This document shows, one piece after another, positions 2,908 to 25,393 of a stretch of DNA of 29,136 bases. The stretch is from a virus. The DNA lies in the IMG/VR virus record IMGVR_UViG_3300048691_000086, positions 1 to 29,136 of that record, one strand, 5' to 3'. A model generated the notes under the pieces. The model was given only the letters and a program-made list of their open reading frames with translations. It did not search any database and had not been told where the DNA came from. Each line of letters opens with the position of its first letter. The stretch's first letter is position 1. Both the position numbers and the translations under genes were made by a program.

Positions 2908-3231
2908 ATGAGTGATGACTACAGATATCCAAGGAACTTCTTGGAGTGGATTAAGTTATTACCCAAAGCAGATGCAGGAGATAGTGAAGCTATGTTCTCA
3001 CTAGCACTAATGAGCGAATCCGTTGATCAAGCTATTCATTGGATTGAGAAATCAGCTGTACTTAAACACTTACCTGCAATCAGGTATTTAATAAATCACT
3101 ATACAGACTTTGATTTTAAAGACACTGCTAAAGCAGATTATTGGATTAAATTAAGACAACAAGAGGAGAGTAAACATGTTGTATGTATTAAGCTTAAACA
3201 AAGTTCAAAAGTCATAAAGGAAAATATATGA
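2908..3231 (+). CDS. Divergent Sel1-like protein with a run-on C-terminus
   Basis: 107 residues, strong SD (AAAAAGGAG). The core holds degenerate Sel1/TPR-type helical pairs: EAMFSLALMSESVDQAIHWI at about 28-47, then a second unit ending AKADYWIKL. Sel1 repeats are helical scaffolds that bind proteins. The last 22 or so residues (RQQEESKHVV onward) are read from sequence that nearly matches the non-coding leader after the stop of the next gene (see the repeats at 3139 and 3783). Loss of the old stop by an indel therefore seems likely, and the tail may be new and unfolded. The gene overlaps the next start by 4 bases. Confidence 0.6.
   Translation: MSDDYRYPRNFLEWIKLLPKADAGDSEAMFSLALMSESVDQAIHWIEKSAVLKHLPAIRYLINHYTDFDFKDTAKADYWIKLRQQEESKHVVCIKLKQSSKVIKENI
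3139..3180 (+). repeat. Direct repeat copy A (gene end plus ribosome binding site)
   Basis: Near-copy of 3783-3824. Shared exact blocks are AAGACAACAAG and GAGAGTAAACATGTT. In this copy two bases are missing before the first block, so the TAA that ends the gene in copy B is out of frame and translation runs on. The ATG at 3176 now opens only a 13-codon frame and looks like the stub of a lost gene start. Confidence 0.75.
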
Positions 3232-3800
3232 ACTATATATACGACTTACCTAGAGTACTAATGAATGCAATTAAACTAGGGTATGACCCAGCTATTAAAG
3301 ACGCTTGGGAAGAGTTTGAGGCTGATGATATATTTGGTGCAATTGAACACTATAACGATATGTGTAAATCAGACAAACCTTCACCAAATGCGTTACAAGC
3401 GCTAATTAGATTAGCTTTTTTGGGACGTAAGCGACCTATTGAATATGTTGCTAAATTGGCTGCCGATGGAAGTACTGAAGCTTTAACCGCAATTAGTACC
3501 CTTGCTGAGCAAGAGGACAGTAATGCTCTATGGTACTTAGGGCATATATACCGTCAAGGTGCGGGAGTAGAGCAGAACATTGAGAAAGGTATGCAATATC
3601 TATGTAAGGCGTTTAACTTAAATAAAGTAAATGTACTAGATTGGTTTGAGGAATGTCTTCTAGAAGGGGACTCTGAAATTGAAGCCTGCCTCTCTACTTT
3701 GGCATCAGAACATAATATGGAAGCTCAGTATATGTTAGGTAAATACTACCGTAAAAAAGCTATTGAAGTTCATTCAGAACGCTATTGGGAAAAACTGTAA
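3228..3800 (+). CDS. Sel1-repeat-like protein
   Basis: 190 residues, SD AAAGGA. Recognisable Sel1 signature at about 105-130 (ALWYLGHIYRQGAGVEQN), with the A-x-x-x-L-G-x-x-Y-x-x-G-x-G-V pattern, followed by weaker units ending EAQYMLGKYYRKKAIEV. The N-terminal 65 residues are helical and acidic. It is the second of several Sel1-like genes in a row (2908-5692). No signal peptide or membrane segment, so probably cytoplasmic. The partner is unknown. Confidence 0.75.
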   Translation: MNYIYDLPRVLMNAIKLGYDPAIKDAWEEFEADDIFGAIEHYNDMCKSDKPSPNALQALIRLAFLGRKRPIEYVAKLAADGSTEALTAISTLAEQEDSNALWYLGHIYRQGAGVEQNIEKGMQYLCKAFNLNKVNVLDWFEECLLEGDSEIEACLSTLASEHNMEAQYMLGKYYRKKAIEVHSERYWEKL

Positions 3801-3824
3801 GACAACAAGGAGAGTAAACATGTT
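3783..3824 (+). repeat. Direct repeat copy B (gene end plus ribosome binding site)
   Basis: Counterpart of 3139-3180. It covers the final codons and TAA of one gene, the SD (AAGGAGAG) and the ATG of the next. This copy keeps the intact stop and functional start and is therefore likely closer to the ancestral arrangement. Confidence 0.75.
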
Positions 3825-4095
3825 CTTTAGAAAACAACGCTATGGTAAGTTTCAATCAATCTATGAATTAGCCACACACTTTAAAGGTAAGAACCCTCAA
3901 GTATGTAAAACCTATGGAGGTGTGATTGTTAATGGTGAATTCTTTGAAACCAAGCTATCAAGCTTAGAAGTAAGGCTATGTATCCAATGCTTAAGTAACC
4001 TGAAGTACTCAGCACAGCTTAATGGCACTAGGGTTGAGTATAAGCAGGGTGTATTCACTGTGTACTACGAATCCAGTAAAGTATTAGGAGGTTAG
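3820..4095 (+). CDS. Hypothetical basic protein
   Basis: 91 residues from the ATG with SD AAGGAGAG nine or so bases upstream. An earlier in-frame ATG at 3763 lies deep in the preceding gene and is not used here. The N-terminus is strongly basic (MFFRKQRYGKF), and the body looks mixed alpha/beta with a strand-rich end (TRVEYKQGVFTVYYES). A nucleic-acid contact is possible from charge alone. No family recognised. Confidence 0.55.
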   Translation: MFFRKQRYGKFQSIYELATHFKGKNPQVCKTYGGVIVNGEFFETKLSSLEVRLCIQCLSNLKYSAQLNGTRVEYKQGVFTVYYESSKVLGG

Positions 4096-4122
4096 TATGT
4101 TGAAAAGTAGAGAGGAATCAAA

Positions 4123-4626
4123 ATGACAACGTTTACAGAACTTAAAGCACTTCCATTTGTATCTGACCCAGATAGTCAATATGAACGAGCCATGGCATTC
4201 TATAACCTAGATAACTCTATTGAAGCCATGAAAGCATGTTTATCTTGGATCAGAAAGGCAGCTAAACAAGAGCATATTGCTGCGCAAGCCTTCTTAGGGG
4301 CTTCCTATTACTTCGGTAGTAACACCTTAACTAAGGACGTTAAACAAGCCTTTAAATACGCTAACAAGGCTGCTCTTGAGGGTGATGCAGGTAGTCTTTT
4401 TATATTAGGGCTTTGCTTCTATCACAATCAAGCAGATGAGCATGATGCCACTAAAGCTATTGCATGTTTAGGACAAGCTGCATCTCAAGGATTTAAGTTA
4501 GCTAAATCAGAGCTGCTACGTATACAGATGTTAGGTGAGATGGCAAAAGAAACTTTAAAAGCTAATAGTGCTCCATCTTATGGAGCAGAACTGCCTTACA
4601 TGTACGGAGATACCCATGGTAAATAA
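4123..4626 (+). CDS. Sel1-repeat protein
   Basis: 167 residues, SD AGAGAGGA. About three consecutive Sel1-type units: around 20-55 (YERAMAFYN to WIRKAAKQEHIAA), 56-90 (QAFLGASYYFGSN to ANKAALEGDAG) and 91-130 (SLFILGLCFYHNQ to LGQAASQGF). These have the usual alternation of small and aromatic residues. The C-terminal 35 residues are unstructured in appearance. The last 11 bases overlap the next Sel1-like gene. Probable cytoplasmic protein-protein interaction scaffold. Confidence 0.8.
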   Translation: MTTFTELKALPFVSDPDSQYERAMAFYNLDNSIEAMKACLSWIRKAAKQEHIAAQAFLGASYYFGSNTLTKDVKQAFKYANKAALEGDAGSLFILGLCFYHNQADEHDATKAIACLGQAASQGFKLAKSELLRIQMLGEMAKETLKANSAPSYGAELPYMYGDTHGK

Positions 4627-5038
4627 CAAAGGACTTTCCCATAAACCTATGGAAGAGGCATATGACAACTATATAGAAGCTGTGTCCAATCTTGCAAACC
4701 AATACAGTAAACAGGGTACTGGTGAGACTAGCTTTAAAGCTGTAGAGATTCTAACTAGAGCATCTAAGTTAGGTAACCCTAAGCTATTAAGAATGTTAGG
4801 ACTTCTGTTGGTATACAGAGTATCTGTCCGTAACTATAAACGAGGTGTGAAATATTTAACTGAGGCAGCATACCTAGGAGATGTAGAAGCTCAGAAAGAC
4901 TTAGGGGAAATCTACAGCTATGCACAAGGGTTTCCCTCTAAGAGTACCATGCGTAAAGCTCTCTATTGGTTTACACAAGCAGCTGACCAAGGTTGTAAGT
5001 ACTCTATCTCACAGGTAGATAAAATCTTAGGAGGATAA
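4616..5038 (+). CDS. Sel1-repeat protein
   Basis: 140 residues from the ATG that follows GGAG and overlaps the previous gene. An upstream in-frame ATG at 4568 has no SD and would lengthen the overlap. Two clear units: GVKYLTEAAYLGDVEAQKDL, then GEIYSYAQGF to ALYWFTQAADQG near the C-terminus. The N-terminal half is helical and contains a more degenerate unit. It forms a tandem pair with the preceding gene. Confidence 0.75.
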   Translation: MVNNKGLSHKPMEEAYDNYIEAVSNLANQYSKQGTGETSFKAVEILTRASKLGNPKLLRMLGLLLVYRVSVRNYKRGVKYLTEAAYLGDVEAQKDLGEIYSYAQGFPSKSTMRKALYWFTQAADQGCKYSISQVDKILGG

Positions 5039-5692
5039 ATGGAAGTAACCCAGTACCAAGCAGGGCTGTTGTTATGGCAGGAAGATAAACGCAAGGCATT
5101 AACGTACCTAGTGCCTGCTGTGCTAGATGGAGATGCCTTATCTAAGGAGTTCTTGGTTCAACAAGGTGTAGCCCTATCAGAGGTGTCAATACCCACAGAT
5201 AACTCTCACATATACCGTAAGGTATCAGAGACTCTGTTAAGTATGCTCACTGATTTTGAAGGTGAACCTTATGAAGACTTAGTTAATCAACTTAGTACCT
5301 TGGATTGCTCTGAGGTGCTTCAAGTAGCATATAAAGAAGTAGCCAAGCTATACACACAATACCTTACAGAGAACCTTGAAGGTGTAGTGGTAGGCTTTAA
5401 ATCTATGTCTGAGGATACTATCACAGGTGTAATGGATAACCTATCAATAGCCTTCATGAAGGGTTTAACCCTAGAACAGTATGTATGTGAAGAGCATCAT
5501 TTACAGTCTCCTACTTACGAGAGTAAAGGTAGAGGGCGGTTAAGTGATTATGTAGATGAGCTGCTCACTGAGATCAGGGGTTCAAGCTTCATTGATGATG
5601 CTGTATTTACAGCATTACGAGAGTACCGTGAACACCCACTAAATAAGCTGGTGAGTGAAGCAAATAGACGATATACCTTAGAGGAGACTTAA
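5039..5692 (+). CDS. Hypothetical protein with one Sel1-like N-terminal unit
   Basis: 217 residues. A strong SD (TTAGGAGG) precedes the ATG, which directly follows the previous stop. Residues 5-42 (YQAGLLLWQEDKRKALTYLV and what follows) read like a single decayed Sel1 unit. The remaining 170 residues are helical, acidic and do not resemble any family I know. Its place at the end of the Sel1 run suggests descent from the same expansion with a different C-terminal domain. Confidence 0.6.
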   Translation: MEVTQYQAGLLLWQEDKRKALTYLVPAVLDGDALSKEFLVQQGVALSEVSIPTDNSHIYRKVSETLLSMLTDFEGEPYEDLVNQLSTLDCSEVLQVAYKEVAKLYTQYLTENLEGVVVGFKSMSEDTITGVMDNLSIAFMKGLTLEQYVCEEHHLQSPTYESKGRGRLSDYVDELLTEIRGSSFIDDAVFTALREYREHPLNKLVSEANRRYTLEET

Positions 5693-6046
5693 ATGAATGT
5701 AACAGCTTATGTAGGTAACGCTGAGTATATCTGTATTACCTGCCCTAGACCTGATAACTGTAAGACTATCACAAATATTTCAGAGGTCTTTGAATTAACT
5801 TATCAATGTGATATATGTAAGGAAACCTTTAGGTTTGATGGAAACCTACATACTGAGGGCATTGAGATCTTGGATCAAGTACCTGAATACCTAGATGATT
5901 CACCCTTTGGTGAACGCTATGGAAGTGAGACTTATGACCTCACACAGGAACAGATTGATTCCTTGGTTAGAGGTAGTGTAATTGCTTTAGATGTGCTACA
6001 TGAGAATGTTGTCTACATACGTAAGAAAATTAAACAGGAGAGTTAG
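5693..6046 (+). CDS. Small protein with zinc-ribbon-like cysteines
   Basis: 117 residues, SD GAGGAGA. Cysteines C14, C17, C23, C39 and C42 form two knuckle-like pairs (CITC and CDIC) about 22 residues apart, which fits a zinc ribbon. The C-terminal half is acidic and helical (LTQEQIDSLVRGSVIALDVL). Such proteins often bind nucleic acid or proteins, but there is no catalytic signature. Confidence 0.6.
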   Translation: MNVTAYVGNAEYICITCPRPDNCKTITNISEVFELTYQCDICKETFRFDGNLHTEGIEILDQVPEYLDDSPFGERYGSETYDLTQEQIDSLVRGSVIALDVLHENVVYIRKKIKQES

Positions 6047-6463
6047 ATGCATAATGAAACCGAAGCAGAACGTATTCAAACAATTAAAGATGATGCAGAA
6101 ACCTATAACAACAGGTTTAATATAGCTAAGGTATTTAAACAAACTTATCACCTCCCTTTAGACGGTGAGGTATCTGCCTTAGTTAATACTTTAGCTTTCT
6201 CAGATTTAATAACAGAGACCACTACAACCTTTGATATTAACCTGGGTAAAGCAAAGGCTCTAGTAATTCCTAAGGTACTTCCCGAAGAAGAGTACCAGCT
6301 ACTTATACCAGCTCTTAAAGGTATTCAAGAAAACTACTGTAGAACAGTTAAAACTTGGCAAGATACGGTTAGGATAAGCTTCCTACGCTCTATGTATCGC
6401 AGCCACCCTGTAACCTTATTGGACTATACAAATGACAGTCTTACTATTTCAAAAGACCACTAG
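6047..6463 (+). CDS. Hypothetical protein
   Basis: 138 residues, starting right after the previous stop with SD AGGAGAG. N-terminal helix rich in Glu/Asp (ETEAERIQTIKDDAETYNNR), a central mixed region, and a helix near residues 105-120. No motif recognised. Its end overlaps the next gene by 32 bases. Confidence 0.55.
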   Translation: MHNETEAERIQTIKDDAETYNNRFNIAKVFKQTYHLPLDGEVSALVNTLAFSDLITETTTTFDINLGKAKALVIPKVLPEEEYQLLIPALKGIQENYCRTVKTWQDTVRISFLRSMYRSHPVTLLDYTNDSLTISKDH

Positions 6464-6755
6464 CCTAAATACACTCAATGATGCTTTAGATGGACATCTT
6501 AGTTGCTGGGGTAGTGCAGCCTTACATACCTACCTACAAGAGTTAACACATAACTTCTCAGCAGCTATATATAACATTCAAGTACTTAAGGATAAGTATT
6601 GTGAGCTGACTCTTGAACAGGTACAAGATAAGTTCAATTTACTTGATGCATCAGTAGAAGAGTGTGAAGACTACCTCTACGGTAATGATTCCGTAGGGGA
6701 AACTTTAATTGACAACAATAGGGAGCTTAGGCTCTTTTTATTTTATAAAGGATAA
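6432..6755 (+). CDS. Hypothetical acidic protein
   Basis: 107 residues. The start lies inside the preceding gene, with TTGGA as a modest SD. Helical and acidic, with a short WGSAALHTYLQELTH segment. The end of the gene contains a hairpin followed by a T-rich run (6720-6744), which could terminate transcription. Unknown function. Confidence 0.5.
   Translation: MTVLLFQKTTSLNTLNDALDGHLSCWGSAALHTYLQELTHNFSAAIYNIQVLKDKYCELTLEQVQDKFNLLDASVEECEDYLYGNDSVGETLIDNNRELRLFLFYKG
6720..6744 (+). terminator. Possible weak intrinsic terminator
   Basis: A seven-pair stem (AGGGAGC with GCTCTTT, two pairs being G-T) and a TTAG loop run straight into TTTTTATTTT. It lies within the last codons of the gene ending at 6755 and before a stretch of decayed reading frames. 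The stem is weak, so partial termination at best. Confidence 0.3.
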
Positions 6756-6757
6756 AC

Positions 6758-6820
6758 ATGACTAATGAAGAATGGTTAGAAGACTATGAGCAATTTGAAA
6801 ATAAAGGTAATAATAAATGA
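6758..6820 (+). CDS. Possible 20-residue acidic peptide
   Basis: Short frame (MTNEEWLEDYEQFENKGNNK) with SD AAAGGA two bases after the previous stop. The composition is strongly acidic and codon choice resembles the neighbours, so translation is plausible. It resembles the equally short acidic frame at 18158 in style. It could equally be the surviving N-terminus of a larger broken gene, since coding-like sequence follows in other frames. Confidence 0.35.
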   Translation: MTNEEWLEDYEQFENKGNNK

Positions 6821-6834
6821 GCCTAGTAAGTAAC

Positions 6835-6923
6835 ATGCCTGATCCCCTTACGAAGATGAGATTCAGCCCATTGACCTATTGGATCAATTACTAATTAAGG
6901 TAAATCAAAATGAAGTCGCATAA
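6835..6923 (+). pseudogene. Probable remnant of a small gene (frame broken)
   Basis: After ATG CCT GAT CCC the text YEDEIQPIDLLDQLLIKVNQ reads as good protein in another frame, up to a TAA at 6921-6923. It has no start in its own frame because a TGA lies at 6840. Removing two bases near 6847 would give one continuous peptide beginning MPDPYEDE. In the frame that does have starts, the reading ends after 25 codons (6817-6894). A small indel in a former small gene is the simplest reading. Confidence 0.3.
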
Positions 6924-7269
6924 AACTATACTGAATATTGATGACGTATACCACGTATCTAGAAGAGAGGGTATTCCCTATACTACATTACACAACCTAA
7001 AAGTACAACCTGGCGGTAACTTGTTAGTACCTACTAGTAAGCAAAAGCTTACTATGTCTGGTGATACGTATATGTTACCAATGACCTGGATAAGTGAACA
7101 AGTGGCGTTAGGTCTAACTGTTGCACTTAAACTTGACCCATTCTCATTAGTGGGGGGTATATACTTAGTAGCCTATAAAGAAATGTCCCTGGATAAGCTT
7201 AAGAAGGTGATCACAAAAGAAGTTAAGAAAGTCTATAAACAACCTCCTGTATTTACAGGAGATATATAG
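6910..7269 (+). CDS. Tandem-paralogue family protein, copy 1
   Basis: 119 residues, SD AAGGT. The second half has a pattern shared with the genes at 7533 and 7813: a (L/V)P-x-x-W-(V/I) core (MLPMTWISEQ), then a G(L/Y)-x-V strand about eight residues on (GLTVALK), then a helix and a Y-x-x-P ending (VYKQPPVF). The shared pattern points to a small alpha/beta domain. Function unknown. The three copies lie within 1.3 kb and have probably arisen by duplication, though divergence is high. Confidence 0.6.
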   Translation: MKSHKTILNIDDVYHVSRREGIPYTTLHNLKVQPGGNLLVPTSKQKLTMSGDTYMLPMTWISEQVALGLTVALKLDPFSLVGGIYLVAYKEMSLDKLKKVITKEVKKVYKQPPVFTGDI

Positions 7270-7296
7270 TAAACACAGGAATCAAAGGAACTACCT

Positions 7297-7536
7297 ATGA
7301 CATTATTTGAATTACTCTATAAACTAAATCAGGAACAACTGACTATTGAAAGTCATGAAGGTTACTTAGATATCCAAGGAGTTAAGTTCCCTAGTGAGCT
7401 ATCTCCTGAGATTATTCATTTAGCTAATAAGGCTTTCCACAGTAATAAGAGGACAGCCACTAAAGGTATCTACACAGTTACCTTAACTAATCAAGTCTTT
7501 GCCCTATACCAATCAACCTGTAGTTACTTAAAATGA
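7297..7536 (+). CDS. Hypothetical protein, relative of the gene at 17332
   Basis: 79 residues with SD AAAGGA. Residues around LANKAFHSNKRTATKGIYTV align with LAYKAFNSESHIATESWRTV of the gene at 17332, and the lengths and starts also match (MTLFELL against MTVKSFF), so the two look like distant paralogues. It sits between copies 1 and 2 of the tandem family and overlaps copy 2 by four bases (ATGA). No known function. Confidence 0.55.
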   Translation: MTLFELLYKLNQEQLTIESHEGYLDIQGVKFPSELSPEIIHLANKAFHSNKRTATKGIYTVTLTNQVFALYQSTCSYLK

Positions 7537-7838
7537 AACAGTACAACAGCTTCTGTTCAATAGATGTGATTGATGGTTGTCCTGTAGTAACCATTTTAAG
7601 AACACCAGCTATTGAGATTATTAAAACCATTACCCTCTTCAATGACTCTACCCTACCTAAGACTTGGGTAACAACAGCTTTTAAAGAGGGTTTAGTTATC
7701 ACCGTTAAAATTGGTGGTGGCACTGTTACTTTCAATGCCCATAAAATGGCTAGCCCTGAAGAGATTGAGGCGTATATAAGTGCTGATCTAAGTAAGATTT
7801 ACAAAAAACCATGTGAGTTTAAATATGCAAAAGATTGA
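7533..7838 (+). CDS. Tandem-paralogue family protein, copy 2
   Basis: 101 residues. The ATG overlaps the previous stop (ATGA) and there is no clear SD, so translation is probably coupled. It has the family core TLPKTWVTTAF, the strand GLVITVKI, a helix beginning SPEEIEAYI and the ending IYKKPCEFKY. It is the shortest of the three copies and has a shortened strand region. Unknown function. Confidence 0.6.
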   Translation: MKQYNSFCSIDVIDGCPVVTILRTPAIEIIKTITLFNDSTLPKTWVTTAFKEGLVITVKIGGGTVTFNAHKMASPEEIEAYISADLSKIYKKPCEFKYAKD

Positions 7839-8184
7839 TGTTTCCTGTTTATGTAGATTCTTCAGTGTTAATGCTGAAGGTAAGACATCACTAGTTACAC
7901 TAAATGATCCCTCTAAATTAACCTATGAAGTGTGCGTTGCTACGTCCACTGATAATGGATACCATGTACCCATTGACTGGGTAATAGAACAAAAACAGCT
8001 TGGTTACACAGTGATGGCAGAGCCTGACATTTATTACGAAGATTTCTACGATATAGACTACGCAGCCTATGCTTCTATCTCTAGAGAAGAGTTACTTGTC
8101 CATATCAAAGAATACGTGGAAGCTACTTACGTCAAACCTTATGAGTTACATATACCTAAGAGAAAATGGGGAGATACACCATGA
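7813..8184 (+). CDS. Tandem-paralogue family protein, copy 3
   Basis: Up to 123 residues. Two starts are possible, 7813 and 7825, and neither has a strong SD; the second has GTGAG nearby. Family core HVPIDWVIEQKQLGYTVMAE, then an acidic tyrosine-rich insert (YYEDFYDIDYAAY) and the ending TYVKPYELHI. The acidic insert is unique to this copy. The stop overlaps the next gene (ATGA). Unknown function. Confidence 0.6.
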   Translation: MSLNMQKIDVSCLCRFFSVNAEGKTSLVTLNDPSKLTYEVCVATSTDNGYHVPIDWVIEQKQLGYTVMAEPDIYYEDFYDIDYAAYASISREELLVHIKEYVEATYVKPYELHIPKRKWGDTP

Positions 8185-8609
8185 ACATTGAAGAACAAAC
8201 ATCACTAGAGCAACTCACAGAGTTAGCTAATCAAGGTGTAGCACAGGCTCAATATAACTTAGCTGTCTATTACCTAGAAGGTCTTGAGGGTACACCTCAA
8301 GATACCTCTAAGAGTGTTGAGTGGCTTACTAAAGCTGCTAATAATGACTTACCTCAAGCCTGTATAGCCTTAGGTGCAATGAACCTCTTTGGGTTACATG
8401 GACATACGGTAGATGTACCTACCGCTATTACTTGGCTTAGTAAGGTAGCTCACTTAGGTAACGTAGATTCCATGAACAATCTAGGATATATCTACAGCAC
8501 TGGATTTGAGGGTGTAGATAAGAACGTAGAGCTTGCTATCTACTGGTATACCCAAGCAGTTAATAAAGGCTCTGTACATGCCAAGGAAGCCCTTAAAGGA
8601 TTACTATGA
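8181..8609 (+). CDS. Sel1-repeat protein (three clear repeats)
   Basis: 142 residues from the ATG with SD GGGGAG, overlapping the previous stop. One of the clearest Sel1 proteins here: about 18-53 (VAQAQYNLAVYYLEGLEG to WLTKAANNDLPQ), 54-91 (ACIALGAMNLFGLHG to WLSKVAHLGN) and 92-130 (SMNNLGYIYSTGFEG to WYTQAVNKGS). Three units of about 36 residues would form a short curved helical solenoid. No signal peptide. The three repeats make up nearly the whole protein, so it is likely an adaptor or competitor of protein-protein binding. Confidence 0.88.
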   Translation: MNIEEQTSLEQLTELANQGVAQAQYNLAVYYLEGLEGTPQDTSKSVEWLTKAANNDLPQACIALGAMNLFGLHGHTVDVPTAITWLSKVAHLGNVDSMNNLGYIYSTGFEGVDKNVELAIYWYTQAVNKGSVHAKEALKGLL

Positions 8610-8688
8610 AATCTCTTATGAAGAAGAGCTTGAATCTATCCATATATTAATTCAATTAAGGATCAATATTGAAAGACACCATGAATGA
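8578..8688 (+). CDS. Possible 36-residue protein overlapping two Sel1 genes
   Basis: A short frame that starts within the Sel1 gene before it, with AAAGG correctly spaced, and ends inside the next gene. The product (MPRKPLKDYYEISYEEELES and 16 more residues) looks protein-like, with a basic start and an acidic helical middle, and it bridges the otherwise open stretch 8610-8668. An alternative 14-codon frame from 8606 looks less protein-like. Small and unproven. Confidence 0.35.
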   Translation: MPRKPLKDYYEISYEEELESIHILIQLRINIERHHE

Positions 8689-9067
8689 ATTAGATCAAGA
8701 TATAGCATTTGCTACAGGGAGTGTTTACCTATCAGCACGTATGTATGACAGAGCATTGCCCTACCTAAATGTAGCTGCATCATATGAACACTGTGATTCT
8801 CTATGGGTATTGGCTCAACTATATACCTATGGTTGGGGTGTAGACATAGACTATAAGCTCGCCTCTAGCTATATAGAGCGAGCTTACGCATTAGGCTGTA
8901 AAGATGCCCTACGCCTAGTTAAAGAGATGGGTGAACCTATTAGGTGTACCAAACACCACTATAGGTTAGGTAAAGCATTGGAAGATACTAGAGCAAAAGA
9001 GGTCTTACTAGTATCTTGCTGGAAATGTACCTACTGTGGTTACAGTAAAAGGAGAGAGGGTATATGA
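8669..9067 (+). CDS. Sel1-like protein with C-terminal zinc-finger-like tail
   Basis: 132 residues from a TTG with SD AAGGA six bases upstream. An in-frame ATG at 8681 has only a weak SD but would overlap the upstream stop, so the start is uncertain. The N-terminal 80 residues hold Sel1-like units (ALPYLNVAASYEHCDSLWVL, then AQLYTYGWGVDIDYKLASSY). The C-terminus has a CxxHH segment and, after about 25 residues, CWKCTYCGY, which fits a zinc site. A repeat scaffold joined to a zinc knuckle suggests binding to a protein or nucleic acid. The stop overlaps the next start. Confidence 0.65.
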   Translation: MKDTMNELDQDIAFATGSVYLSARMYDRALPYLNVAASYEHCDSLWVLAQLYTYGWGVDIDYKLASSYIERAYALGCKDALRLVKEMGEPIRCTKHHYRLGKALEDTRAKEVLLVSCWKCTYCGYSKRREGI

Positions 9068-9783
9068 AACCTGAGTACCCAAAATATTACTACATTGGTA
9101 TGTTTTATATTGCTAGTAATATCGGCACGGCTCTCTATTGGTTTAGGGAAGGCGTTACCATTCATGCATGTAGTGCGTGTAAGAACTGTATATCTCTTAT
9201 GCATAAATGTCATGGTCGTGATTACTGTGATGTCTTGGAAGAATCGTTTAAATCAAAAGTAATTGTAGACCCTTGGATAGGTTACTCACCTAGCCGTCCT
9301 GAATTTCTCTCAATAGGGGATCTAGCTACCACCATAAAACTAGCAGAGCGTGGGGTAGACATCTTTAAATTAGGGTTAAGTAAGGTCTATTCAGATAACT
9401 TACTAATCTCACCTAACTACATCATGGCAAGATATTGGATTGGTCAAACACATAAAAATACACTGTACAGAGATGAACAGTTAAGTAACCTAAATGCCCG
9501 ATACAAGTATGCTAGGTTTACTTATTGGAACTCCAAGAAATTACCATATCAGTTGATCCAACCACAACCACAATTATTAAAAGAGTTCTATGAAGGAGTT
9601 AACTTGCTGATAAAGAACACAGAAACTGCTTTAGATAAATTTAAGCAAGGTAGTTTCCTTGGCTGTAACGCTTGTAGCCGAGCTATAGATTTACTCCAAG
9701 CTTTAAATCTTAAAAGCAACTTAACTAGGTTACACAGTAAAACTCTGTACCATCAAAATAACCTAGGAGGTAATGACTCATGA
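9064..9783 (+). CDS. Cysteine-rich Sel1-like protein
   Basis: 239 residues, SD GGAGAGAGG, overlapping the previous stop. Two related units stand out: ALYWFREGVTIHACSACKNC near residues 23-42 and ALDKFKQGSFLGCNACSRAI near 191-210. Both fit the end of a Sel1 repeat with an added CxAC pair. The first unit has further cysteines (C49, C55), so a metal site is possible. The middle has a weaker repeat around MARYWIGQTHKNT. No enzyme signature. Confidence 0.6.
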   Translation: MKPEYPKYYYIGMFYIASNIGTALYWFREGVTIHACSACKNCISLMHKCHGRDYCDVLEESFKSKVIVDPWIGYSPSRPEFLSIGDLATTIKLAERGVDIFKLGLSKVYSDNLLISPNYIMARYWIGQTHKNTLYRDEQLSNLNARYKYARFTYWNSKKLPYQLIQPQPQLLKEFYEGVNLLIKNTETALDKFKQGSFLGCNACSRAIDLLQALNLKSNLTRLHSKTLYHQNNLGGNDS

Positions 9784-9929
9784 ATGGTTCATTAACATGC
9801 CCACATTGCAATGAAGCTTTTGAGCTTGAAGATCATGACTTTCCTGAAGAGGACGACTCTATGCACATATCCAACAAAACAAAAAGGAATCCAAATGAAT
9901 CCATTAATACGAACCAAGAAGACAGCTAA
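9780..9929 (+). CDS. Small zinc-knuckle-like acidic protein
   Basis: 49 residues. The ATG overlaps the previous stop (ATGA) and SD AGGAGG lies nine bases upstream, which is strong. The N-terminus CPHCNEAFELED is a typical CPxC knuckle, followed by an acidic run (EEDD) and a polar asparagine-rich tail. Only one CxxC pair is present, so metal binding would need a partner chain or histidines. The last 35 bases overlap the next gene. Confidence 0.5.
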   Translation: MNGSLTCPHCNEAFELEDHDFPEEDDSMHISNKTKRNPNESINTNQEDS

Positions 9930-10428
9930 GGCAGAATTAGATGCCTTTAATAAATATACAGGCATTAAATTTAAACAAGTACCTTACGAGTACATTACTG
10001 GAGGTATAGATGACCCTGGAGTTACTCTAGCAGTAGGTCAAGCTTGGGCTTACCTACAGACAAATAATGGACAATACCTTTACAAGGATACTGCTATAAC
10101 GTGGTTACTTAAAGGAGCTCACAAAGGTTGTCTTAGATCCCAATATACATTAGGTAGAATCTACTGCCTACACCCTGATATAGAATCTCGGGATTATGTA
10201 GAAGGTATTAAGTGGTTCACTAAATGTGCAAAGCGCAACCTTACATCTGCTCAGTTCCTATTAGCATACTTTTTGTATCTCACTAACGATTGTAAGATGA
10301 ATGCTAAAGCCAGTCATTGGTTAACTGAAGCTGTAAAGAGTAAGAACATACTGGCTGAAGATATGCTTAAAGCACTTACTTTAGGTATACCAGTAGACCT
10401 AGATCGCTACTTAACTTTTCATAATTAA
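9895..10428 (+). CDS. Sel1-repeat protein
   Basis: 177 residues from the ATG with SD AAAAAGGA. A longer in-frame start at 9811 lies in the small gene above and has no SD. The N-terminal 50 residues are non-repetitive. Then come Sel1 units: AITWLLKGAHKGCLRSQYTL at about 68-87, GRIYCLHPD to IKWFTKCAKRNLTSA, and a third ending WLTEAVKSKNILAEDML. Cytoplasmic adaptor-type protein, partner unknown. It is the last Sel1 gene before the antirepressor. Confidence 0.78.
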   Translation: MNPLIRTKKTAKAELDAFNKYTGIKFKQVPYEYITGGIDDPGVTLAVGQAWAYLQTNNGQYLYKDTAITWLLKGAHKGCLRSQYTLGRIYCLHPDIESRDYVEGIKWFTKCAKRNLTSAQFLLAYFLYLTNDCKMNAKASHWLTEAVKSKNILAEDMLKALTLGIPVDLDRYLTFHN

Positions 10429-10444
10429 AAGGAATTAAAAATAA

Positions 10445-11161
10445 ATGAATCAATTAACAAACCATTCAATACCTGAACCTACTTCAGTTGCAACTATGAC
10501 TAGCTTAGAGTTAGTTAAATTTATCAACTCTGAACGTGCTGAAGGTGAAACTGAATTACGACACTCAGATTTCTTAACAAAAGTACCTAAAGTATTAGGT
10601 GAAATAGGTGAACGAAATTTTAGGTTCACCTACACAGATGTGCAGAACAAGGAGAGACCTTGTTATAACTTCCCTAAGCGAGAGGCTTGTTTAATGGCTA
10701 TGTCATATAGCTACGAGCTTCAAGCTAAAGTCTACGATAAGATGACAGCTCTTGAAGAAGGGAGCTTTAGTGTACCTAAGACACTAGCAGGAGCTTTACG
10801 TTTAGCTGCTGATCAACAAGACGTTATTGTTGAGCAAGCTCGTAAGCTTGCTCTTGCTGCACCTGCGGTGGCTTATATTGAGAACTTCGTTAAAGCTGAT
10901 GGTCTCATCGGTATTCGTGAAGCTGCTAAAGCTCTAGGTATGCAACAGAATGCTTTCATTCATCTATTATTAGAGAATAAAGTAATGTTCCGAGAGAACG
11001 GTGGATTACAGGCTTATGCCTCTAGTATCACTAAAGGATACTTTAAAGTAAAGCAAACTCAGGACACTAAAGGTAAGGTGCGAACACAGACTATGTTCAC
11101 ACCTAAAGGTCTTCGTTGGGTATGTGATGAACTAGAGCTATCTAAGCTGCTAGGAATTTAA
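10445..11161 (+). CDS. Phage antirepressor-like protein (Rha N-terminus, ANT/KilA-C C-terminus)
   Basis: 238 residues, SD AAAAGGAA. Residues about 18-100 match the Rha family (SDFLTKVPKVL, FTYTDVQNKERPCYNFPKRE, SYELQAKVYDKM). Residues about 115-235 match the ANT/KilA-C DNA-binding domain (IREAAKALGMQQNAFIHLL, FTPKGLRWV). In temperate phages these proteins relieve repression or regulate phage genes. In an N4-like phage it might instead act on resident prophages or tune its own transcription, which is inference. The 3' end overlaps a convergent - strand gene by 20 bases with no terminator between. Confidence 0.85.
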   Translation: MNQLTNHSIPEPTSVATMTSLELVKFINSERAEGETELRHSDFLTKVPKVLGEIGERNFRFTYTDVQNKERPCYNFPKREACLMAMSYSYELQAKVYDKMTALEEGSFSVPKTLAGALRLAADQQDVIVEQARKLALAAPAVAYIENFVKADGLIGIREAAKALGMQQNAFIHLLLENKVMFRENGGLQAYASSITKGYFKVKQTQDTKGKVRTQTMFTPKGLRWVCDELELSKLLGI

Positions 11162-11537
11162 GTAATGTTTCAGGAGTTACTCTAGACTGCTTAGTAACCT
11201 CTAATCCAAGTAAATAAGCACATAACTCATGACAGTAGAAGTTCTTAGTAGAACCTACTCTCCAAGGCAATATAAAGGCTGTAGCTCCTATTAAGTCATA
11301 TGGTCTACCCACTACACCTCTGAACCTATTAAGAGCCTCTGAAGCATAATGCTCAGGTATCTCAAACCAATCCCATGAATCACTAGGATCTACAGTGGTT
11401 ACATGTACTCCTCTAGTAGGTGTTGATTGATAAAGTCCACCATTAATAAGTAATGCGCTATGGGAGTATTGGCTTACCAGCCTAGCTCTAATTAAAGAAC
11501 TAACTACCCCAGTTCCTTTAAGTAATCCTAGTTTCAT
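11142..11537 (-). CDS. Permuted NlpC/P60-like cysteine peptidase
   Basis: 131 residues. The pattern fits the circularly permuted papain-fold (YiiX/YaeF/LRAT-type) group: an early histidine in YSHSALLI (H26), a GRPYD segment at 77-81, and a late nucleophile candidate in FYCHELCAYLL (C102, with E104 beside it). The fold hydrolyses peptidoglycan peptides or amides. Being the last gene of a tail cassette, it may be a tail-associated wall hydrolase for DNA entry. Start overlaps the previous stop (ATGA on the - strand). Its 3' end overlaps the antirepressor gene. Confidence 0.7.
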   Translation of the reverse strand: MKLGLLKGTGVVSSLIRARLVSQYSHSALLINGGLYQSTPTRGVHVTTVDPSDSWDWFEIPEHYASEALNRFRGVVGRPYDLIGATAFILPWRVGSTKNFYCHELCAYLLGLEVTKQSRVTPETLLKFLAA

Positions 11538-11932
11538 AATAGGCTCTTATAGTTAGCTGCATTAATGAATAGTTGATCTAACTCCTCAGGTGTAATAGCT
11601 AAGGTTGTTACTAGTGCATTAACTAAAGCACTGTCCCTAGACACAGTAGGTTCATATTCCCATTGGATCATAGGTATAGCTCCCATGGATTTAATTAAGG
11701 TAGATATCTTGGCTACTAAGCCTGGCTTCCATTTCTCTAAGGCTACCTTAGCACCTACCATTGGTACAAGCACAGGTACTGGTGGTTTACTGACGTTTAA
11801 ATGCCATTCAAGGAACTCTTCTACAGTCATAGCTGTATAGCCATTAGCTAAGTCTTGAACCACATAAGGGTTCTCTATATCCTCATATTGTTTTACATCA
11901 TTGGTTTCTTGGTTTATGTAGTAGTAAGTCAT
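11534..11932 (-). CDS. Probable tail fibre assembly or accessory protein
   Basis: 132 residues from the ATG that overlaps the stop of the tail protein gene (ATGA). SD-like GGTGGA lies upstream; an in-frame ATG 18 bases earlier is less likely. The N-terminus (MTYYYINQETNDVKQYED) and the C-terminal pattern IQWEYEPTVSRDSALVNAL followed by ITPEELDQLF resemble small proteins often encoded beside phage tail fibres. The position directly after the receptor-binding gene supports a chaperone role. No catalytic residues visible. Confidence 0.5.
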   Translation of the reverse strand: MTYYYINQETNDVKQYEDIENPYVVQDLANGYTAMTVEEFLEWHLNVSKPPVPVLVPMVGAKVALEKWKPGLVAKISTLIKSMGAIPMIQWEYEPTVSRDSALVNALVTTLAITPEELDQLFINAANYKSLL

Positions 11933-13269
11933 AGTAATTGTTCCACCCATTTAACTAAAGTTGCTGTTGTATTTATCCGATATGTTGCACCTACTGGCAC
12001 TATCGTAGAAATCTTAATACTGTCTACATTAAGATCACCCTGATGTACCACTACATCATTCACAAGGACACTGACTGGTAGACGTAACGAGAAGTTCTCT
12101 ACTGAGACATACCACATAAAGGTTCTACCATAGGTGTTCGTCTGTGTTACATTTAGCTTCAGAGGAGCTGTAAGGTTTACTGGTGTAGCTGCTTGAACTG
12201 CTGCTGCTAGGTTCTGTCTAGGTACGGTAATTATGTTCCCAGTAGTTACAGGAAACTGTGCTGTAGCACTTGTCCAACCAGTGAACCAAGAGCCAATATG
12301 TCCAGCTATACCATCGATGTATGCACTAATACGGTAACGGTTTAGGTACACCTCAGAACCCCAGTCTATCTCAAACTGAAGCATTCCTGTGTCTGTGTAA
12401 CCTCCTTTGATAGCTACAGGTGTTGCACCACCTTTACTTACCCAACCACTGTTAAAGATGTTACCTGCGGGTACACCATAGTTGTATAGGCTTATCTGTA
12501 TATCAATAGGGGAAGAGAGCCCATAGGAATATCCTTGTAAGAATACTGTAGGCATTGTGTAGCTATCCTTGGGTATATTGGTAGTGATAATCTCATACCG
12601 ATAGAACCCACCTGAGACAAAGGATAGTATGTTCTCATAACTACAACCATCGGCAGAGAAGCTAGATACACCAGCAGCACTGCTTACCTTAAGCCACGGT
12701 GTGAATGTATTAACCCCTGTGGTTAAGTTTATGTCAGTAGACCTACGTCTCCAAGTAACTATTCCAGATACTTGGATTAAGGTTTGTATAACTACACCAT
12801 CCGCTACTATTACATCTAGCGTTCCTTCACCTGTTTGAGGAGAGTTAGCAAGAGTCCCACTAGAGCTATAACTACCAGCACTTATGTAGTTGTTTAGATC
12901 ACTGACTGCTACACCCTTATCTTGGTAAGCTGTACCAGCAATCTTATCTACATAACCAGGTGTAGTAACTAACTCATCAGAGACAGTTGTAGGTGTCATT
13001 GAATCTGCTACACCTAGATTCCCTGCTTTAGTGGATACAGGTATTGGATACGTGGTAAGTGTTACATACCCTGTACCTGAGGCTAGCTTCACATATTTGT
13101 ATGTGGTTGAATAGCTTATAGATGAGCCTGCTGCTACTGTAGCCACAGTAGTTACAGCATCTGTGGATAGGAGCATGTTTACACTATTCTCATTCTTTAG
13201 TGTAACTGCCCCTGCTGCACTTGCTCCTGATAGGGGAGTGTACCTATCGTTAATATATATCTCAATCAT
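11929..13269 (-). CDS. Receptor-binding tail protein with pyocin-knob-like module
   Basis: 446 residues, rich in Ser, Thr, Gly and beta-strand pattern, as in phage tail fibres. Residues about 124-176 hold a motif seen in many tail fibres (DLNNYISAGSY to VTWRRR), the knob-type module. The N-terminal 110 residues may attach to the virion, and the C-terminal 250 residues are beta-rich and probably form the receptor domain. SD GAGGA precedes the start. It heads a leftward cassette of three genes within rightward early genes; in N4-like phages, leftward genes are the late structural ones, which fits. Confidence 0.8.
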   Translation of the reverse strand: MIEIYINDRYTPLSGASAAGAVTLKNENSVNMLLSTDAVTTVATVAAGSSISYSTTYKYVKLASGTGYVTLTTYPIPVSTKAGNLGVADSMTPTTVSDELVTTPGYVDKIAGTAYQDKGVAVSDLNNYISAGSYSSSGTLANSPQTGEGTLDVIVADGVVIQTLIQVSGIVTWRRRSTDINLTTGVNTFTPWLKVSSAAGVSSFSADGCSYENILSFVSGGFYRYEIITTNIPKDSYTMPTVFLQGYSYGLSSPIDIQISLYNYGVPAGNIFNSGWVSKGGATPVAIKGGYTDTGMLQFEIDWGSEVYLNRYRISAYIDGIAGHIGSWFTGWTSATAQFPVTTGNIITVPRQNLAAAVQAATPVNLTAPLKLNVTQTNTYGRTFMWYVSVENFSLRLPVSVLVNDVVVHQGDLNVDSIKISTIVPVGATYRINTTATLVKWVEQLL

Positions 13270-13312
13270 AGTAAGTCCTCAGTTGTATGCCCTGACAGGA
13301 CACATCTAGGCT

Positions 13313-13321
13313 ATTATCGCA
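13313..13321 (-). promoter_or_regulatory. Candidate extended -10 promoter for the tail cassette
   Basis: On the - strand the sequence TGCGATAAT is a TGn-extended -10 element (five of six matches to TATAAT). The -35 region at 17-base spacing (TTCTCC) is poor. It lies about 45 bases upstream of the tail protein start in the divergent region 13270-13348. A weak -35 would suit an activator-dependent late promoter such as N4 uses with host RNA polymerase, but this is inference. Confidence 0.35.
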
Positions 13322-13348
13322 CCCTTTATTAACTTGGAGAACTTACAG

Positions 13349-13609
13349 ATGGCAATAAATAAACCTCTAAAGAGGGTAGCTATTAATCACACAGATGGAC
13401 TGATTTGTGTAGCTGTCCCTCACACTGAAACAGTGGAAGAGTGTGTAGCTCGTTGGGTGAACCTAAGGAACATTCATGTAGTTACTGTTACCACGTTACA
13501 TGAGAATACTGCTGCACTTACCTTGTACTATAAAGCAGCAGCTAATAATCAAACCTACAGAGACAAGCATAAAACTAAACCTACCAATAAAACCTATAAC
13601 TACCTATGA
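13349..13609 (+). CDS. Hypothetical small basic protein
   Basis: 86 residues from the ATG with SD TTGGAGA. A TTG 15 bases earlier is in frame but overlaps that SD. First rightward gene after the tail cassette. Mixed alpha/beta, with strand-like ICVAVPH and VVTVTTLH and a basic polar C-terminus (RDKHKTKPTNKTYNYL). The stop overlaps the ThyX start (ATGA). Unknown function. Confidence 0.55.
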   Translation: MAINKPLKRVAINHTDGLICVAVPHTETVEECVARWVNLRNIHVVTVTTLHENTAALTLYYKAAANNQTYRDKHKTKPTNKTYNYL

Positions 13610-14763
13610 CTATTAAAATCCATACCAAGCTAGTAGATGACTTAGACCCTGAAGTACAAGCCATGTTAATTGCTATGTACTCAAGAGATAGCTCATCTAT
13701 CGTTACACGCTTACCTTCTAGTATTGAATCCAAGGAACAACATAAGGAGAAATTTAAGAAGTACTTCCTAGACTATGGGCATAAGAGTATTGGTCAATGT
13801 GGGGTTACTACTGTGTTCTTTGAGAATGTCTCACTGATAGCTGCCAAGTGTATTGAGAACCACCCTTTGTTTAATGGGCAGGAATGCAGTACTCGTTACA
13901 TTGACTTCACTAAACAACCTTTAATCAGTGATAGTCCTGCTACCACTGTAATCCAGGAAGCTTTAATGAAAGAGTATACTTGGCAGTTAGAGGCTGTTAC
14001 AGCAAAGCTAATGAAGGAACACCCAAGTAACACTAAAGTACAGGTTAACTCTATTAAGGCTAGAGCCTTTGATATATGCAGAGGTCTACTACCTGCTGGT
14101 GTTACTACTAATGTGGCTATGGTAGCTTCCTTTGATACCTTCATTAACCACTTAGGTATGCTCTTATATCACCCATTAACTGAGGTGAGTAAGATTGCTG
14201 TAGCTACCTTATATAAGTTGAAGCAAGATTACCCTACAGCCATTCCTGACATGGAAGACCTCTTACAAGAGTACCACTACATGCTAGGTAAGGAGCAATA
14301 CTTCTATACAACCAATGTGCAAGAGTACACAAAGAACATAGCACCAATACAACGTGAACTAGTACCTCTGAGTGAGAGTAAGATAGCCTTACAAGGCTTT
14401 GAAGGTTTACTAGACTATGGCTCATATAGAGACTTACACCGTCATCGTAATGGAGTTATCAACTTCCCTAAGCTTGATACTTATCTTGGCTTCCATCCTT
14501 GGTATTCAGAACACTTAATCCATAGAGAACCTCTTACTGAAGTACTACTTAGTTGTATGGGTGCAAATCCTTATGCTATTCCCCTTGGGTTTAGAGTACC
14601 TGTTAAGTACACCTGTGATGTCAATCAATACAACTATGTACTAGGTCTTCGTAGTGGTATGAGTTCACACCCTACCTTAAGACAGTTTGTTTTAGGTGAA
14701 GACTTCGTAGATAGCTTTAACCCTGTAAGGGGTAAACAAACATTTAATATGGAGAACCAATGA
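13606..14763 (+). CDS. thyX: FAD-dependent thymidylate synthase homologue, double ThyX domain
   Basis: 385 residues, longer than the usual single-domain ThyX (about 220-250). ThyX makes dTMP from dUMP with FAD, NADPH and methylene-tetrahydrofolate. Residues 1-200 form one ThyX-like unit (YGHKSIGQCG at 57-66, GQECSTRYIDF at 91-101, CRGLLPAGVTT at 158-168). Residues 260-365 form a second (DYGSYRDLHRHRNGV at 270-284, then GLRSGMSSHPTLRQF). The classical RHR-x7-S-x-R-Y signature is split: STRY lies in the first unit, where RHR is replaced by ENHP, and RHR lies in the second. With dUTPase it would supply thymine nucleotides. Start coupled by ATGA. Confidence 0.82.
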   Translation: MTIKIHTKLVDDLDPEVQAMLIAMYSRDSSSIVTRLPSSIESKEQHKEKFKKYFLDYGHKSIGQCGVTTVFFENVSLIAAKCIENHPLFNGQECSTRYIDFTKQPLISDSPATTVIQEALMKEYTWQLEAVTAKLMKEHPSNTKVQVNSIKARAFDICRGLLPAGVTTNVAMVASFDTFINHLGMLLYHPLTEVSKIAVATLYKLKQDYPTAIPDMEDLLQEYHYMLGKEQYFYTTNVQEYTKNIAPIQRELVPLSESKIALQGFEGLLDYGSYRDLHRHRNGVINFPKLDTYLGFHPWYSEHLIHREPLTEVLLSCMGANPYAIPLGFRVPVKYTCDVNQYNYVLGLRSGMSSHPTLRQFVLGEDFVDSFNPVRGKQTFNMENQ

Positions 14764-15197
14764 AAAGAAAGTTTACTAAGTTGGCTCTTAACCCCCTATA
14801 CATACTTTCTCAGAAAGCCTTACTTGATGTTGATGTTGTTAACCTAGAGATCTCTAGATTCATTCACTGCCATCAAAGTAGTGAGGAAGGAAGTGCCTCT
14901 CATAATGCTTGGGCTGCTTTAGTAAGCTCCATTGAACTTACTAGGGAGCTAGGACTTCTAGGTTACTTCAAGGACTTAGTAATGCCATTATTTGATAAGG
15001 TATATCCAATACTGCAAGCTACTTACGCTGAACAAGTTGAAACAGGTATATATAGATATGTTAGTGATATTTCTATAGATGTCTTGGATCTAATTAACAT
15101 ACACCATGCTCAACTTGAATGTATTACTAGGGCTGTCTATGAGAAAGCCTATACAACTACCAATAAACGACTAAAGGAATCAACGCATGCTAAGTAA
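14760..15197 (+). CDS. Hypothetical helical protein
   Basis: 145 residues. The ATG overlaps the ThyX stop and SD GGAGA lies upstream. Almost wholly helical by composition, with a basic N-terminus (MKRKFTKLALNPLY) and a basic C-terminal tail. No motif recognised. The overlap suggests co-translation with ThyX, but no enzymatic link can be seen. Confidence 0.55.
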   Translation: MKRKFTKLALNPLYILSQKALLDVDVVNLEISRFIHCHQSSEEGSASHNAWAALVSSIELTRELGLLGYFKDLVMPLFDKVYPILQATYAEQVETGIYRYVSDISIDVLDLINIHHAQLECITRAVYEKAYTTTNKRLKESTHAK

Positions 15198-15663
15198 CGT
15201 AGTTAACATAGTTATAGGAGAATCTCTAGCTTCATATCGTTACCTGGGAGATGGTGAATACCTTTCCTATTACCTCCCCGAGACTGAGAAAAGCTTATCA
15301 AGAATAAAGGCTTGGGTAGTAAATTTCTGTGAGACATGTACTAACCAAGGCTTGTACCCTTACGTAATATTCACACACTCACCTTACATACTTAATCACT
15401 TCATGCTTGCTACTTATGTTGGTAGTTTAGTAAAAAAGTATCCTAACAGTGTTAAGGTCACTGAGTTAAAGAAACTTCATGGATCAATAGATCCTGATAT
15501 GTTAGACCTGTATGAGGCTGATAGTGAACTAGTGAAACTAAAGAAAGAATATAACCTCATCACTAGTGACAATTACCTTAATAACACCTTAGGTAGCTTC
15601 AATGATGACTACGCTGATTTATTAGAGTTAAGTTTAGAGTTAGATAACCAAAAGGAGCAATAA
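15187..15663 (+). CDS. Hypothetical protein with an ATPase H-loop-like motif
   Basis: 158 residues, SD AAAGGA, overlapping the previous gene by 11 bases. The segment PYVIFTHSPYILNHFMLA at about 58-75 closely resembles the switch (H-loop) region of OLD/AAA_21/ABC-type ATPases, where a histidine follows a strand. There is no Walker A, signature or Walker B motif in the protein, so it cannot be such an ATPase by itself. It may be a fragment or a mimic. The remainder is acidic and helical. Confidence 0.5.
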   Translation: MLSNVVNIVIGESLASYRYLGDGEYLSYYLPETEKSLSRIKAWVVNFCETCTNQGLYPYVIFTHSPYILNHFMLATYVGSLVKKYPNSVKVTELKKLHGSIDPDMLDLYEADSELVKLKKEYNLITSDNYLNNTLGSFNDDYADLLELSLELDNQKEQ

Positions 15664-15665
15664 AA

Positions 15666-16367
15666 ATGAGCATACTACATGAAGCACATGATCTAATCAA
15701 TGGACAACGAGCCAAGGATTACGGATCACCTGATATAAACTTTGCACACATTGCTGCTATATGGTCAGGTGTACTAACACCAATCATTAGCCGTAACATC
15801 ACCTCAGTTGAGGTTGCCTTATGTATGCAGGGAGTTAAGATGGCTAGATTAGCCAAGAGTCCCGACCACAGGGACAGTGCAGTAGATAACTGTGGGTATG
15901 CAGGTATTATTGAAAAGCTAGTATCAAGCCATACAGAAGCTCAATGTAATTTAGACGTAGTGCCTTGTCATGTGGATAAAGAGCAGAATGAGTCTTCGGC
16001 TATAGAGTGGTTGCAAAACTCCGCTGCCCGAGGTGGTGTACATGCGCAATTTTATTTAGGCAGTTTGTACGAAAAAGGACAAATCGTAGTTAAAGACAAA
16101 ACTAAAGCGTTCCAGTTATACGAGAAAGCTGCCAAACAAGGTCATGGATATGCACAATTTAAGTTAGGTTATATGTACCACAAAGGCAAAGGCGTAGAAA
16201 AGAACGAAAGCACAGCGGTAGCGTGGTTTCAAAAAGCTGCTGACCAAGGACACGCAGAGGCGCAACTTAAATTAAAAGCATTAGGATCACTCTTGGCTAA
16301 CAAAACCGTGTCTCTATACAAGAATGCCTCAGTAGGTCAAACTGTATTTGGTTGTGCTGAAACATAA
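15666..16367 (+). CDS. DUF6378 domain fused to Sel1 repeats
   Basis: 233 residues, SD AAAAGGAG. Residues 1-85 match the phage DUF6378 domain (QRAKDYGSPDINFAHIAAIW, then VKMARLAKSPDHRDSAVDNC), of unknown activity. After a linker, residues about 108-200 are Sel1 repeats with near-textbook bacterial sequence (FYLGSLYEKGQ, LYEKAAKQGHGYAQFKLGYM, GKGVEKNESTAVAWFQKAAD). The repeat part uses codons such as GCG and CGA more freely than its neighbours and is less decayed than other Sel1 genes here, which suggests recent gain from a bacterial genome. Domain order and the single open frame are clear; the function is not. Confidence 0.82.
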   Translation: MSILHEAHDLINGQRAKDYGSPDINFAHIAAIWSGVLTPIISRNITSVEVALCMQGVKMARLAKSPDHRDSAVDNCGYAGIIEKLVSSHTEAQCNLDVVPCHVDKEQNESSAIEWLQNSAARGGVHAQFYLGSLYEKGQIVVKDKTKAFQLYEKAAKQGHGYAQFKLGYMYHKGKGVEKNESTAVAWFQKAADQGHAEAQLKLKALGSLLANKTVSLYKNASVGQTVFGCAET

Positions 16368-25141: not shown

Positions 25142-25284
25142 GTGAAAGTTCAGAAGATAAAGATGAGTTCTCAGGATTAGACCAGTTAGTACTTATTACT
25201 GGTGTTTCAGGTGAAGGTAAGTCAAGATCTCTATATAACATACGGGATCAGCATGACTGGATATACCTGAATGTTGAAGCGGGT
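25138..25284 (+). CDS. RecA-like ATPase, exon 1 (residues 1-49)
   Basis: Starts at the ATG overlapping the primase stop (ATGA). The exon encodes the N-terminus and Walker A, GVSGEGKS (22-29), and ends in LNVEAG. Unspliced, the frame stops one codon later (TTG TAA), so no functional protein would be made. Joined to exon 2 (26235-26897) it gives a 269-residue RecA/Sak4-like ATPase; reading across the join is EAG-KRLPF, a segment I associate with phage ATPases of this type. The N4 replication block has an ATPase at this place. Probably acts in recombination or replication. Confidence 0.85.
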
Positions 25285-25334
25285 TTGTAAGATAGCCCCT
25301 CTACATAGCAATATGTAGCAGATAACTTATTTAA

Positions 25335-25363: not shown

Positions 25364-25375
25364 AAGTTTCGATAA

Positions 25376-25383: not shown

Positions 25384-25393
25384 ACATAGACAG

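Follow-up and report, generated by a model that had tools for sequence, protein, structure and literature searches.

An N4-like phage genome with at least eight predicted Sel1-repeat genes

Results

Predicted Sel1 genes and their scores

The window analyzed here, a linear virus record of 29,136 bases taken at its full length, carries at least eight predicted Sel1 genes, named by their first positions: 2908, 3228, 4123, 4616, 8181, 8669, 9895, and 15666. All are intact open frames on the plus strand. Seven of them form a packed same-strand block at positions 2908 to 10428, amid genes without a recognized function. The eight genes carry two or three tandem units of approximately 36 residues with the framework L-G..Y..G.G...D...A..W...AA..G. 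The framework positions are conserved across units, and the remaining positions vary. A search of the window in all six frames turned up no further Sel1 genes, and neither did a search of approximately 26 kb of this virus that lie outside the window.

Profiles were built from approximately 900 Sel1 units of bacterial proteins, and 4,194 open reading frames of N4-like relatives were used as decoys. The alignment of the phage Sel1 genes was too variable to serve as a search profile. With the bacterial two-unit profile, the scores were 154.8 bits for 15666, 88.2 for 8181, 58.8 for 4123, 46.0 for 4616, 41.4 for 9895, 33.6 for 3228, 18.8 for 8669, and 13.6 for 2908, and the top decoy scored 7.5 bits. 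Single units scored from 67 bits down to less than 0 against the bacterial profile. The curated cutoff of Pfam Sel1 (PF08238) was passed by 3228, 4123, 4616, 8181, and 15666. A first-pass annotation had assigned Sel1 units to the seven genes other than 2908. Profile searches recovered all seven, rather than just one or two of them, and the same conclusion was reached with phmmer, in which seven genes matched solved Sel1 structures (15666 best, 8.6e-68). PHROG 8741 also matched these seven genes, as well as 2908 weakly. The alpha-hairpin solenoid is taken from a predicted model for 15666 and from matches to solved structures for the other genes; the Sel1 fold of these proteins is well supported.

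The block begins with 2908 (2908 to 3231; 107 amino acids), a divergent gene with two units at approximately 2986 to 3075 and 3076 to 3168 and an E value of 0.0023 to phrog_8741. Neither Pfam Sel1 nor phmmer against solved structures gave a match for this gene. Gene 3228 (3228 to 3800; 190 amino acids) has one clear unit (3522 to 3629) and two degenerate ones, scored 31.8 bits with Pfam Sel1, and matched the HcpC structure at 5.3e-11 by phmmer, the method used for all structure matches given here. Two three-unit genes follow. The first, 4123 (4123 to 4626; 167 amino acids; units at 4171 to 4497), scored 43.1 bits with Pfam Sel1 and matched PDB 6ok3 at 2.6e-35. The second, 4616 (4616 to 5038; 140 amino acids; units at 4676 to 4999), scored 43.4 bits when scanned as 4634 to 5035 and matched the same structure at 2.2e-17. 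Gene 8181 (8181 to 8609; 142 amino acids) is a canonical three-unit gene composed of Sel1 only (units at 8244 to 8576), with 99.5 bits in Pfam and 1.3e-50 to a solved Sel1 structure. The two-unit gene 8669 (8669 to 9067) ends in a Cys/His-rich C terminus (CTKHH...CWKCTYC) that was judged by eye to be zinc-ribbon-like. Its Pfam Sel1 match was subthreshold, and its match to the SEL1L structure (2.9e-9) was the weakest of the seven. The last gene of the block, 9895 (9895 to 10428; 177 amino acids; three units at 10021 to 10350), was likewise subthreshold in Pfam and matched phrog_8741 at 4.3e-10 and PDB 6ok3 at 4.2e-22. Gene 15666 (15666 to 16367; 233 amino acids) is a DUF6378-Sel1 fusion, with DUF6378, a domain common in phages, at residues 3 to 85 and Sel1 units at 15936 to 16256.

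Three further genes had been proposed as decayed or divergent members, and they fared differently. Gene 2908 was upheld, since none of the 4,194 decoys scored as high with the two-unit profile. Gene 9064 (plus strand, 9064 to 9783; 239 amino acids) is borderline and may be a very divergent Sel1 gene. With a leave-one-out phage profile it scored 5.6 bits and 2 of the 4,194 decoys did better; with the bacterial pair profile, 59 did better. It matched 4616 by blastp at an E value of 0.009. No Sel1 match was obtained for it by phmmer against solved structures, and an AlphaFold model of the gene alone was uninformative (pLDDT of 32). Gene 5039 (plus strand, 5039 to 5692; 217 amino acids) has no recognized family, and its proposed Sel1 kinship was not supported: it lacked a Pfam or PHROG Sel1 match, and 49 (leave-one-out) and 142 (pair profile) of the 4,194 decoys scored as well. 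Both 9064 and 5039 fell inside the decoy score range with the bacterial two-unit profile.

Other features were seen in and beside the block. Three adjacent paralogues, 6910, 7533, and 7813, occupy positions 6910 to 8184 (blastp E values of 1.7e-6 and 9.5e-5) and had no Pfam or PHROG match. A small open reading frame of 49 amino acids with a CPHC zinc-finger-like motif (9780 to 9929) lies between 9064 and 9895. On the minus strand, the gene at 11142 to 11537 belongs to the phrog_1128 moron family (4.9e-21) and is convergent with an antirepressor gene.

The virus is N4-like by its gene matches

The DNA polymerase at 19641 to 22100 is 54 to 55% identical to the polymerases of the Achromobacter phages Axy11 and Axy22 and of N4. 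The minus-strand frame at 28494 to 29078 is the C terminus of a very large N4-type virion RNA polymerase (phrog_2206, 1.5e-66, positions 3210 to 3405 of 3406) and is 50% identical to that of Stenotrophomonas phage Paxi. The capsid protein of the virus is 53% identical to N4-like capsids, and the window also encodes a Dda-like helicase, an exonuclease, a primase, a single-strand binding protein, and a dUTPase. Because of the matches of the polymerase, the virion RNA polymerase, the accessory replication genes, and the capsid, the virus is assigned by sequence to the N4-like phages of the Schitoviridae type. It is a virulent-type phage known from metagenomes only.

Two further contigs represent the same virus, differing by a single mismatch and a 15-base indel across approximately 17 kb. 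They start at positions 12041 and 12169 of the window, past the Sel1 block, and one adds approximately 26 kb rightward. Both contain a 15-base stretch at position 27669 that is absent from the window. Both also begin inside the minus-strand frame at 11929 to 13269, which may be a variable tail-type gene. The thymidylate-synthase-like gene at 13606 to 14763 has its sole relatives in the phage collection in phages of 278 to 309 kb, at 28 to 32% identity. Farther right, at 25142 to 26897, an ATPase gene is interrupted by a group I intron (RF00028, 25950 to 26184) and a homing-endonuclease gene (25394 to 26026). Its 5' exon, with the Walker A motif GVSGEGKSRSL as read from the DNA, ends at approximately 25250, and its 3' part extends to 26897.

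The Sel1 block most likely belongs with the rest of the phage genome

Only one contig covers the Sel1 block, as would be expected if bacterial DNA had been wrongly joined to a phage contig. Against such an artefact, the tetranucleotide use of the left part and Sel1 block correlates with that of the rest of the virus at 0.94 to 0.96. By comparison, halves of single other phages gave 0.81 to 0.955, and other N4-like viruses gave at most 0.735 against this virus. In addition, the open frame at 11929 to 13269, which has no PHROG match, is continuous through the start points of the other contigs, the block is flanked by phage genes for an RNA ligase and a KilAC antirepressor, and 15666 is present in three contigs of the virus in total. 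A misjoined contig is thus extremely improbable. Given this agreement in tetranucleotide use, the region is unlikely to be chimeric or recently imported.

Sel1 genes are rare among the phage records searched

Sel1 repeats were found in 0 of 50 N4-like records (49 plus the named genome Axy22; most of 20 to 78 kb), in 0 of 35 other phage records with the same RNA ligase, and in none of the other DNA polymerase relatives searched, so the set does not consist of core genes of the relatives. Of 50,697 phage records, 28 had a match to a Sel1 consensus, and several of these resemble bacterial DNA in size and gene names. The eight records opened had one Sel1 gene each. Five were among these 28, one of them with its Sel1 units split into short frames. 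The lambdoid-type prophage contigs L099 to L101 each carry their Sel1 gene near the tail end, and its product ends in a zinc-ribbon-like and a membrane segment. No second viral contig contained an exact match to a 31-base probe from 8181, and a search with 13606 for relatives bearing the block returned only the same virus. The literature search found no report of a multigene Sel1 set in a phage. These results agree with the earlier view that a phage carrying many Sel1 genes is unusual.

The phage Sel1 proteins share the 36-residue alpha-hairpin units, the fold, and the framework residues of the known Sel1 family (HcpB/HcpC, LpnE/LceB, SEL1L, and the Oxalobacter structures). They differ in having two or three units, in lacking a hydrophobic N terminus, and in forming a multigene set in a phage. 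Sel1 is also found on phage genomes as the single prophage genes of L099 to L101, Akkermansia phage Chambord, and Helicobacter phages. A Cys-rich zinc-ribbon-like tail is a feature of the L099 to L101 genes and perhaps of 8669. However, these are one gene each, several of them near integrase or tail ends, whereas at least eight are present here in an N4-like phage. PHROG 8741, which eight genes here match, is a phage Sel1 family with no assigned function, and no member genome with a comparable multigene set was found in this analysis.

Most of the Sel1 genes appear old

Protein similarity among the Sel1 genes is real (4616 versus 8181, blastp E value of 3e-12), and no DNA similarity among them exceeded that of codon-recoded controls. 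Recent duplication within the phage was rejected: the excess of gene pairs over synonymous recoding had a mean z of 1.0, compared with 1.37 and 1.22 for unrelated pairs. Short direct repeats occur in the block (for example, 3139 to 3180 with 3783 to 3824) and were not taken as evidence of duplication, because DNA alignments did not exceed the recoded controls. The units were also compared in a nearest-neighbor test with equal numbers of score-matched bacterial units. Among 20 units, 62.6% had their nearest neighbor in the phage (5 to 95% range, 47.5 to 75%; expectation, 50%), a value that did not differ clearly from the expectation and is to be read with the bias of a bacterial set gathered with a 15666 query. 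The best bacterial matches of 9895, in 16 Sel1-rich genomes, were approximately 30 to 42% identical. Judged from these comparisons, the Sel1 genes other than 15666 are old. The first-pass annotation had suggested duplication and fast change, and a phylogeny of the units to separate duplication from repeated capture. The protein-level kinship and strong divergence stand, duplication gains nothing from the DNA comparison, and the nearest-neighbor test did not separate duplication from capture, with the units of 15666 nearer to bacterial ones.

One or two captured Sel1 genes might have spread and now be decaying without a selected function, as the weak scores of 2908 and perhaps 9064 and the fall of single units to below 0 bits could suggest. 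However, all frames are intact in a packed block even though DNA similarity has been erased, and the framework residues are conserved, which makes such drift improbable. Because the frames remain open despite the lost DNA similarity and the framework is conserved, the sequences suggest retention under selection.

The fusion gene 15666 may be a later capture

Both parts of 15666 were recognized by Pfam (DUF6378, 5.6e-25; Sel1, 1.8e-28), in line with the fused domains first proposed from the sequence. The predicted model of the Sel1 part has a pLDDT of approximately 97 and matched the Sel1 protein 6orc with Foldseek at 2.3e-6. The nearest bacterial proteins to its repeats are 54 to 56% identical, and its two clear units lie nearer to most bacterial units than to any unit within the phage. 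Peptide patterns from the repeats were found at 218 places in bacterial genomes versus 3 viral contigs, 2 of them the same virus, a rough contrast given that the bacterial collection is larger than the viral one. The nearest bacterial sources include Sel1-rich symbionts such as Amoebophilus. Because its repeats are nearer to bacterial units than to those within the phage, 15666 looks like a separate, later capture than the other Sel1 genes.

Gene 15666 sits between the thymidylate-synthase-like gene and replication genes, and DUF6378 without Sel1 was over the cutoff in 3 of the 50 N4-like records. The Sel1 repeats could carry the DUF6378 protein to a partner. This joining of Sel1 to a phage domain, together with its location and the DUF6378 records, would also fit Sel1 proteins that organize phage enzymes (DUF6378, nucleotide metabolism, and replication) and leave the host untouched. 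However, seven of the eight genes have no fusion to a recognized phage domain, and the relatives replicate without any Sel1. We consider such internal scaffolding unlikely.

Discussion

A proposed set of host-protein adaptors

SEL1L, HcpC, and LpnE are established Sel1 proteins that bind other proteins, and the Sel1 fold is used by bacteria and animals to hold other proteins. No catalytic activity is known for Sel1 solenoids. Each of the phage proteins would fold into a small alpha-solenoid with two or three units and would most likely stay in the infected cell and bind other proteins. The confirmed Sel1 proteins range in charge from -11 to +7 at pH 7, and no strongly hydrophobic N-terminal stretch was found in any of them. 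Because the proteins are short, vary in charge, lack a hydrophobic N terminus, and keep the framework, the simplest interpretation is that they are cytoplasmic proteins with different binding partners. With the framework kept and the other positions differing, each protein probably grips a different partner. Accessory phage genes of this kind commonly serve host takeover or counter-defense, and the likely partners would be host regulatory or defense proteins, which would be blocked or diverted as the phage takes over the cell. We therefore propose, with a probability of roughly one-half, that the phage retains its own set of eight or more small Sel1 adaptors that bind host proteins in the infected cell. 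The binding, the host targets, and early expression are inferred. Early expression of the block is assumed, because no N4-type hairpin promoter was recognized in its intergenic gaps, where hairpins were at chance level only.

The partners could instead be eukaryotic. Legionella Sel1 proteins such as LpnE are eukaryote-directed effectors, and ankyphage ankyrin-repeat proteins, which are also phage-borne repeat scaffolds of a different repeat type, are thought to act on eukaryotic hosts. The phage proteins might similarly aid the bacterial host inside an animal or protist, and the presence of Amoebophilus-type symbionts among the nearest bacterial sources is compatible with this. Nevertheless, a signal-like hydrophobic N terminus is absent, and a virulent-type N4-like phage profits little from the long-term symbiosis of its host. 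We regard eukaryote-directed effectors as very improbable.

The proteins might also act as decoys, in which free phage Sel1 proteins mimic the Sel1- or TPR-like modules of defense systems, thereby poisoning assembly or taking up the ligand. Residues 1 to 71 of 8181 align with positions 1 to 69 of the PADLOC model of the Septu ATPase PtuA (E value of 1e-7), 15666 matched the PtuA model at 5.8e-6, there was a weaker match to the type I-A retron ATPase, and 3228 had a subthreshold match to a TPR-S sensor. In addition, the C-terminal TPR and Sel1-like repeats of Pseudomonas Avs5 are required for its activation (PMC12931631). However, the similarity to PtuA is much weaker than that to Sel1 and may come from the shared repeat consensus alone, so decoys seem quite unlikely. 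Gene 8181 was rejected as a PtuA gene itself, since the AAA ATPase domain is absent and only the N-terminal 69 of 545 model positions were matched. A broader version, which we consider doubtful, is a diversified set of Sel1 proteins acting as adaptors or decoys, every one specialized for its own host defense or regulatory protein and some imitating Septu, type I-A retron, and Avs5 modules. If true, the Sel1 battery would be a general, evolvable counter-defense scaffold, for which the literature search found no phage report.

For the proposed host-protein adaptors, the SPO1 ClpC adaptor-like protein (PMC6873191), a small phage protein that acts on a host machine by binding and redirecting it, serves here as an analogy alone.

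Few phages carry Sel1 genes, and the other Sel1-bearing phage records opened here had one each. The presence of at least eight diverged genes in one N4-like phage suggests that a scaffold for binding can grow into a phage's own collection of host-protein binders, much as repeat proteins have been expanded in bacteria and eukaryotes. Should the targets prove to be defense proteins, the set would help to identify the host proteins that N4-like phages need to keep in check and would supply existing binders for them.
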